Positions 32,036 through 33,408 of a stretch of DNA of 64,000 nucleotides are shown here, piece after piece (positions within the stretch are counted from its first letter, which is position 1; each line of letters starts with the position of its first letter). Below the pieces are notes generated by a model. It was not told the DNA's origin. It did not search any database and worked only from the letters and a program-made list of their open reading frames with translations. Source of the DNA: Paramecium tetraurelia (taxonomy: Eukaryota > Ciliophora > Oligohymenophorea > Peniculida > Parameciidae); the NCBI RefSeq assembly GCF_000165425.1, contig NW_001798987.1:1-64000 (forward strand), in the 5' to 3' direction. A program made the translations under genes and the position numbers.

Positions 32036-33336
32036 TCAATTCTTTTAAACAGAAGTTTATGCTTAGCTTTTCTCAACATATTCCACTTCATTCTTATTGG
32101 GGTATTTTTTGGTTTTTTCAATTTTTGTTCTTTTTTATAATTACTAATTATTTATTTAGAATCTTTAGTCCAATGAAAAGTTTTAGACCTCTCCATTAGA
32201 TTCGGGATTTTGCTATTGTTCAAATCCTTAATTTTGAGAGTATTATTGTTATTAATTTTATCTAGCAGGTTTTTCGTAATTTTGCTGCTTGCCATATTGT
32301 TGTTTATTGCTGTTTTATTATTGATAATATTGATTCTAATAAAATCCGTTGTTTTGTTACCAATATTGAGGAGTCTATTGAAATTAATAACCTAAAATAA
32401 TTAAATTTTATATACCAACTTATTATTATTAATAATAATAAGGTTAGTAAGGTTATTAATAATAATATTATTAGCCATAAGGAGGTTAATAGTATCCCCC
32501 TTAAGACTTTCGATTGTTTTTTTTCCTCTCGTAGGATGCAACTGAGAAGGAGAATGGGATAGTTTCAAAGACAGAGGAGAGTTCCTTGAATTTCTTCTCA
32601 AATCTTTGGTTGTTTGTTCTTTCCTCTCTATTTTCAAACTGTTGAATTATAAAATAACAATACTTCCAATTTATCTAGTTGAGGAAATTCTTCAAATAAG
32701 CTTTTATTGGAGACTTCATTTTGAAATATTTTTGTCATTTTGATGCCATTTTCATTTGATAATTCTGTGCAATCTATCAAATCATAAACTGATTTCAAGG
32801 TTTCTTCACTACCTTCTAACTTTTGAATTTGCTTGATATTTTCGAATAGCTTAAATGAAAGATCCTTAATATACAACTAAATGATAAATGATGCTCATAC
32901 CCATTCTATTGAAAATGTGCCAAACCATTTATTTTCAATTAACCAAAACTTAAAGTGGAATTTAGGATTGAATGCAGAAGTTAGCTTTGCCATTCCGCTA
33001 AAGCACATACTATTAATTTCTGTAAAGAACAGATAAACTTCTTATTTCTTATTTGTGAATGCTTCGTGTAATCGTTCGTTTTTACGAGATGAGCTATTAT
33101 CTTATTAATCATTTACCTCGTCCAAATGCCGTACTTCATAGCTCTATGGACATTGTCTTCTCCTTATGTTCTTATAATAAAGAATTTGCATTCTTCTAAA
33201 TTGTTAAATTCGTGATTAAGGTTGATTTTTGCTAAAGAGGGAAATTTCTTTCGGATCTAGTTGATATCGTCATAACTTTCTAATGATATGAAGGGAGGCT
33301 AAGAATATGGAAATGCTATACTTGATCGTTCATCAT
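32036..33336 (-). CDS. YTH-domain m6A reader with Q/Y-rich C-terminal tail
   Basis: 393-residue RNA-binding protein. The YTH domain (about residues 40-160) has the stretches FFIIRTQGEDNVHRAMKYG, VYLFFTEINSMCFSGMA and NKWFGTFSIEWLYIKD. Trp64 (KYGIW) and Trp116/Trp122 sit where the aromatic cage that holds N6-methyladenosine lies; the last two are one residue further apart than in human YTHDF1. From about residue 200 the chain is low-complexity, rich in Gln, Tyr, Asn and Pro (GGYYQPPYGQQYYYQQPY), like a prion-like domain. In YTHDF proteins such a region precedes the YTH domain; here it follows it. Five introns (33299-33321, 33094-33116, 32877-32900, 32639-32663, 32392-32415) were needed; the first exon has only 15 bases. 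The total is an exact multiple of three. Likely role: binding methylated mRNA and promoting granule formation. Confidence 0.87.
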
Positions 33337-33408
33337 TTGCTTAAATAAAAATAAAAGATTTAAATAATTTCTGAAATATATTTAATTGATCATCATTATG
33401 AAACCAAA

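Follow-up and report, generated by a model that had tools for sequence, protein, structure and literature searches.

Can a YTHDF-type reader of N6-methyladenosine (m6A) carry its disordered arm behind the YTH domain instead of ahead of it? The question is raised by a gene in a 64,000-nucleotide stretch of Paramecium tetraurelia DNA (contig NW_001798987.1, positions 1 to 64,000; hereafter the window). A preliminary description of this DNA had proposed there a YTH domain with three tryptophans at the aromatic-cage positions, followed by a long Q/Y/P/N-rich tail. Its coordinates, intron number and tail were right; the strand, which it did not give, is minus. The features of the locus are as follows.

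32036..33336, minus strand: whole gene, ATG to TGA, 393 amino acids, six exons, TAA and TAG read as Gln
33299..33321, minus strand: intron 1, 23 nt, phase 0, position matched in paralogue L021 only
33094..33116, minus strand: intron 2, 23 nt, phase 2, directly past the first cage Trp, position common to nine of 13 C-tailed genes
32877..32900, minus strand: intron 3, 24 nt, phase 0, contains an in-frame TGA, position common to nine of 13 C-tailed genes
32639..32663, minus strand: intron 4, 25 nt, phase 0, at the junction of YTH end and linker, position common to nine of 13 C-tailed genes
32392..32415, minus strand: intron 5, 24 nt, phase 1, within the prion-like tail, aligns with that of L021
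32721..33187, minus strand: YTH domain (Pfam PF04146), residues 43-182, split by introns 2 and 3
33122..33124, minus strand: cage Trp 64, equivalent to YTHDF1 W411 by alignment
32943..32945, minus strand: cage Trp 116, equivalent to YTHDF1 W465 by alignment
32925..32927, minus strand: cage Trp 122, equivalent to YTHDF1 W470 by alignment
32504..32638, minus strand: conserved linker block, residues 202-246 (..VFETIPFSFSVASYERKK..), aligned in nine paralogues, candidate partner-binding motif
32198..32500, minus strand: prion-like Q/Y/N/P/G-rich tail, residues 248-340, contains intron 5
33337..33408, no strand: gap of 72 bases to the stop of the predicted upstream gene, too small for a long N-terminal disordered exon

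The gene runs from an ATG at 33336 to a TGA ending at 32036. An independent gene finder, trained on codon use and not informed of the introns, recovered all five, each of 23-25 bases, with the same stop, and placed the start at the second of two adjacent ATGs. When introns were made cheaper for the gene finder, the model of this gene was unchanged; the same run gave false introns in several paralogues, and the introns of the C-tailed paralogues were therefore set by hand, yielding introns of 21-30 bases. Without splicing, the frame opened by the ATG ends after 66 codons, and 32 of the 46 Gln codons in residues 202-393 are TAA or TAG, so that the low-complexity part is indeed hidden, as had been pointed out before, unless these codons are taken as Gln and the introns spliced out. 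A missed upstream exon encoding an N-terminal disordered region was considered and rejected because of the size of the 72-base gap, beyond which lies a gene that we take, from its motif, to encode a DHHC palmitoyltransferase. On the other side, the stop of a predicted convergent gene lies 49 bases from the end of the gene.

The domain matches the Pfam YTH profile over positions 2-135 of 135 (E 1.1e-32; 113.1 bits, the cut-off being 22.1). No other Pfam domain was found in the protein, and a comparison with NCBIfam found nothing. Among solved structures, human YTHDF1 is the closest (1.1e-20, 77 bits), with YTHDF3 and YTHDF2 next; weaker matches are those of yeast MRB1/Pho92 (1.9e-12), CPSF30 (6.3e-9), YTHDC1 (8.5e-7, 32 bits) and YTHDC2 (3.4e-5). 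Alignment with YTHDF1, without a structure model, places W64, W116 and W122 at the cage positions W411, W465 and W470, in agreement with the three tryptophans proposed earlier. The one additional residue between the second and third cage tryptophans, relative to YTHDF1, is likewise real, but it is not a special trait, and we rejected it as a novelty: according to the available text of PMC6112328, the cage residues of Pho92 are W231 and Y237, which gives equal spacing. Other pocket positions of YTHDF1 are altered in the window protein (K395 to R, Y397 to Q, C412 to T), and the position of D401 is occupied by Asn 54. Asn is found there in nine of the 13 C-tailed genes, and also in YTHDC1 and in two CPSF30 domains. 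The same text relates Asn at this position, which unlike Asp can bond N1 of m6A at neutral pH, to the approximately tenfold stronger binding by YTHDC1 (PMC6112328).

The tail stands behind the domain, as had been claimed, with 42 residues ahead of the YTH domain and 211 after it. Residues 248-340 comprise 35 Q, 18 Y, 9 N, 7 P and 7 G out of 93, and no I, L, M, D, C or H; judged by composition, this stretch is prion-like, being longer than 60 residues, rich in Q, N, Y, G and P and poor in hydrophobic and charged residues. Its richest 80-residue segment contains 71% Q+N+Y, against 44% in the runner-up among the 31 predicted genes of the window (predictions of at least 150 amino acids, 12 of 43 having been dropped for overlapping longer ones) and a maximum of 40% in 5000 random proteins built from the residues of 25 other window genes, and chance Q-richness was rejected on these grounds. 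Between domain and tail lies a linker of 45 residues with the motif ..VFExxPFxFSxxSYxRR... This motif is present in the nine genes that share intron positions, in a diverged form in two of the nine (L020 and L023). One genome search with a blended linker query gave 7 places, all of them YTH genes, while missing the diverged copies of L020 and L023. A comparison of the block with Pfam gave nothing credible; identity with a known domain was rejected, the phage antirepressor domain being matched in just two of nine members, with a best E of 0.048.

The C-terminal position of the tail stands, but the gene is not a lone oddity. A search of the genome (69 Mb, 231 contigs; TAA and TAG as Gln, TGA as stop) gave 21 YTH exon matches, counted as 19 genes, all of which were modelled, and 13 of the 19 have a C-terminal Q/Y/N-rich region: the window gene, L009, L010, L011, L012, L015, L017, L018, L019, L020, L021, L022 and L023. 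One of them, L010 (G000:C200:457500-463500), bears a one-base shift between the YTH domain and the tail, which continues in another frame, and is either a pseudogene or the product of an assembly error. All 13 have the W/W/W cage in the alignment. In nine, three introns of the domain and linker agree in position and phase, and the tail of each of these genes holds a further intron, of phase 1. Outside close pairs or trios the tail introns occupy different alignment columns, low-complexity sequence being hard to align. Two other introns are found in L009-L012. Because introns and linker are shared, the view that the layout predates the divergence of at least nine paralogues is supported by these comparisons. 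The tails vary in their longest Gln run, which is 36 in L017 (G000:C161:116300-122300), 14 in L022, 10 in L018 and 4 in the window gene; the excess in L017 over L018 and L022 suggests repeat-length change.

One further gene, L016, has the usual order, with 204 Q-, N- and Y-rich residues ahead of the domain and 48 behind it, and a W/W/Y cage; the remaining five are laid out differently. For L013, L014, L016, L024, L025 and L026 the models are unrefined predictions, whereas in the C-tailed paralogues the introns were placed manually, guided by predictions, homology and splice ends. Pfam was searched for other domains in seven of the 19 YTH proteins; four of these were partial sequences or had short ends.

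Three of the genes with other layouts, L013 (G000:C3:8300-14500), L014 (G000:C63:151000-157000) and L025 (G000:C53:183300-189300), encode an N-terminal ubiquitin-like, DWNN-like part and a RING-like CxxC..PCC..CxxC part ahead of the YTH domain, with an SR/KR-rich tail. DWNN is the ubiquitin-like domain of RBBP6/Mpe1. All three isolated domains matched it, with a best E of 4.1e-5, below Pfam's cut-off, and two longer proteins of the set gave E values of 0.005 and 0.002; profiles of these N-termini found nothing in PDB. The YTH domain of L014 is closest to those of CPSF30-YTH from Arabidopsis and Toxoplasma, and L025 lacks the second and third cage residues. A new DWNN-YTH fusion is possible; no such fusion was found in the literature, by title, among the matches listed. 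Such a fusion, if real, would link m6A reading to the 3'-end processing of mRNA via a subunit other than CPSF30. A DWNN search of the genome gave two matches, dismissed as chance. About 460 bases around these (L043, G000:C124; L044, G000:C212) are identical across the two contigs, and the full 3087-base stretches agree in register at just 1600 places. In L024 (G000:C23:255600-261600) and L026 (G000:C209:289700-295700) the YTH domain is at the extreme N-terminus, followed in the unrefined models by 841 and 715 residues, of which 44% and 54% are K, R, E or D. Their cages align as I/L/F and I/L/Y, and these two proteins are probably not m6A readers.

Placement of the C-tailed genes depends on how long branches are treated. 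A tree of 23 rows, with L010 left out, left the deep forks unresolved and did not unite the C-tailed genes in one clade, and it was rebuilt for this reason without the long rows. In the resulting 19-row tree (L010, L016, L024, L025 and L026 omitted) the split between DF and DC types received 100/99, with human YTHDF1 and 3 and 12 C-tailed genes on one side and YTHDC1, two CPSF30 domains, L013 and L014 on the other; the C-tailed genes formed one group (88/86). When L016 was restored and L020 and L023 were removed (18 rows), the DF/DC split was again 100/99, and L016 was placed among the C-tailed genes (82/84), on a very long branch (2.28). We do not trust this placement, yet it counts against a clean C-tailed clade. 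Thus, with long-branch rows left out, the tree supports the window gene as a DF-clade reader, as does the score of 77 bits against YTHDF1 compared with 32 bits against YTHDC1. There is moderate support for the C-tailed layout having been set only once, which hinges on the omission of the sole N-tailed gene, L016.

An MT-A70 search of the genome gave 16 exon matches. One gene is of METTL3 type (2.9e-82 to METTL3 against 1.4e-31 to ciliate MTA1 structures) and another (L029, G000:C77:13958-14512) has METTL14 as its best match (9.5e-55); DPPW is present in both, and for each there is one further gene of similar score in this search. Human METTL14 has EPPL where L029 has DPPW, and the METTL14-type partner subunit may, judging from this motif, still be catalytic. 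A third MT-A70 gene is closest to the Tetrahymena MTA1/AMT1 structures (1.5e-45), and L031 and L033 are also nearest MTA1, more weakly. In the available part of PMC12695648, METTL3 and METTL14 are linked with RNA, and AMT1 is described as the main writer of DNA 6mA in ciliates. Since METTL3- and METTL14-type genes are present, reading of m6A by the window protein is plausible.

These considerations lead us to favour, with some reserve, a YTHDF-clade m6A reader ordered as YTH domain, linker motif and prion-like tail, which would work as YTHDF proteins do in a mirrored layout. The YTH cage would hold N6-methyladenosine in mRNA made by the METTL3/METTL14-type writer. The short linker, given its conservation, might dock an effector or co-binding protein, and the Tyr/Gln-rich tail, given its composition, could gather methylated mRNPs through weak multivalent contacts. 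As the tail is flexible, the end to which it is attached should matter little; a flexible arm could act from either end, and mirroring the order does not have to alter the principle. According to the accessible text of PMC11649824, YTHDF proteins of Arabidopsis rely for their action on a short ALBA-binding motif in the arm, and the linker block could by analogy be the counterpart of that motif. An ALBA-family (PF01918) search of the genome gave 18 exon matches, and nothing links them to the linker block. Matches to this family are numerous, and an expansion in parallel with that of the YTH genes is conceivable.

Whether the tail is real protein can be judged from its evolution. Nonsynonymous to synonymous ratios were obtained with a plain Nei-Gojobori count under the ciliate code over ungapped columns, which leaves changes such as those of polyQ length uncounted. 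In the tail they were 0.014 (L015/L019), 0.101 (L017/L018), 0.074 (L020/L023) and 0 (L011/L012, 47 codons only), and ahead of the tail 0.031, 0.061, 0.053 and 0.028, respectively, the tail ratio being thus above the pre-tail ratio in two pairs and below it in two. For the window gene no ratio is given, because silent sites are saturated against L021 both before and within the tail (pS 0.76); pN is 0.10 before the tail and 0.23 in it, and 35% of aligned tail residues differ. Taken over the paralogous pairs, the tail evolves as coding sequence under constraint.

It could still be argued that the Q/Y-rich stretch is another gene or an untranslated region, joined to the YTH exons by miscalled introns. 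Introns were called from sequence alone, and the run with cheaper introns did miscall them in several paralogues, though not in the window gene. Yet the independent gene finder reproduces the model under both settings, the ends of the two predicted neighbours lie at distances of 72 and 49 bases, and the three common intron places and phases, with a phase-1 tail intron in each case, recur in nine paralogues on different contigs. With introns shared and paralogous tails constrained, a tail belonging to a separate transcript is unlikely, and we give an artefact of the gene model hardly any credence. A real but passive tail deserves more attention: the YTH domain would read m6A, and the low-complexity extension would be kept by drift in a genome with four Gln codons, with no role in condensation or partner binding. 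Such a view gains from the differences in length and composition among subfamilies (the Gln runs of 36, 14, 10 and 4), from the mere 47 aligned tail codons in L011/L012, from a tail less conserved than the remaining protein in three out of five pairs, and from the general richness of window proteins in Q and N (15% Q+N over 31 genes). It has to contend, however, with tail ratios of 0 to 0.10 in the four pairs where they could be obtained, with the retention of Y, P and G and the absence of I, L, M, D, C and H in residues 248-340, and with a Q+N+Y content far above that of the other 30 window genes. We regard a passive tail as unlikely.

The substrate might also be different, the window protein reading N6-methyladenine in DNA, not RNA, so that the expansion of the family would track the abundant macronuclear 6mA of ciliates. 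A YTH domain can bind 6mA in single-stranded DNA, which would suit such a role. The genome carries the MTA1/AMT1-type gene and further MT-A70 genes nearest to the same Tetrahymena structures, and genomic 6mA is robust in ciliates according to the available text of PMC12695648. On the other hand, the domain lies on the YTHDF side of the family and RNA-type writers are present as well, and we consider DNA as the substrate quite improbable, more so than a passive tail.

How the layout arose is a more tentative matter. DF readers of the Paramecium lineage may have been rebuilt by loss of the N-terminal arm, acquisition of a prion-like arm at the C-terminus, along with a new motif for docking an effector, and radiation to 13 genes, a course that we hold to be possible but somewhat short of an even chance. 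The earlier suggestion of an independent gain, or of a loss and regain, of the disordered partner in ciliates is at most a candidate explanation, as L016 in the same genome has the N-terminal layout. If such rebuilding took place, the place of the arm would be no constraint of m6A reading and could be flipped by evolution, and the linker motif would mark a lineage-specific effector.

By title, no paper on ciliate YTH proteins was found among the matches listed in our literature search. In the available text of PMC10617740, a long disordered N-terminus precedes a C-terminal YTH domain in those plant and animal YTHDFs that have been studied in detail, and chlorophytes are likewise described, as are land plants, metazoa and yeast; the departures given are YTHDFs of charophytes that carry additional folded or transmembrane domains, and a single lycophyte protein whose N-terminus is very short. 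The window protein lacks this long N-terminal region. YTH proteins are typically flanked by disordered N- or C-terminal regions, as the part of PMC12787238 available to us puts it, so that a disordered C-terminus in a YTH protein is not new as such. The apparent novelty lies in a family of the DF clade whose arm consistently follows the domain. Its layout is firm, whereas its function is inferred. The ciliate has RNA-type m6A writers and 19 YTH genes, compared with nine annotated in the dinoflagellate A. minutum (PMC12787238).

Among known systems, human YTHDF1-3, Arabidopsis ECT2 and yeast Pho92 are the most similar in kind, as they also have a DF-type YTH domain, a three-aromatic cage and one long, disordered-looking Q/Y/N-rich region. 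They differ in that this region lies ahead of the YTH domain, whereas in the window protein it lies behind, and the latter has in addition a conserved linker motif without a credible Pfam match and, relative to YTHDF1, Asn in place of D401. YTHDC1 and CPSF30-YTH share with it the Asn at the position of YTHDC1 N367, and in YTHDC1 disordered sequence flanks the YTH domain on either side. However, the sequence match to these readers is far weaker (8.5e-7 and 6.3e-9, against 1.1e-20 for YTHDF1), they fall on the other side of the DF/DC split, and the tail of the window protein is Q/Y-rich, not charged. L016, from the same genome, resembles the window gene in combining YTH with a Q/N/Y-rich region, and differs from it in its canonical order and its W/W/Y cage. 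Set beside the N-terminally armed YTHDFs, the family with the C-terminal arm amounts to a natural domain-swap experiment on whether the arm is needed in one place or merely has to be tethered.
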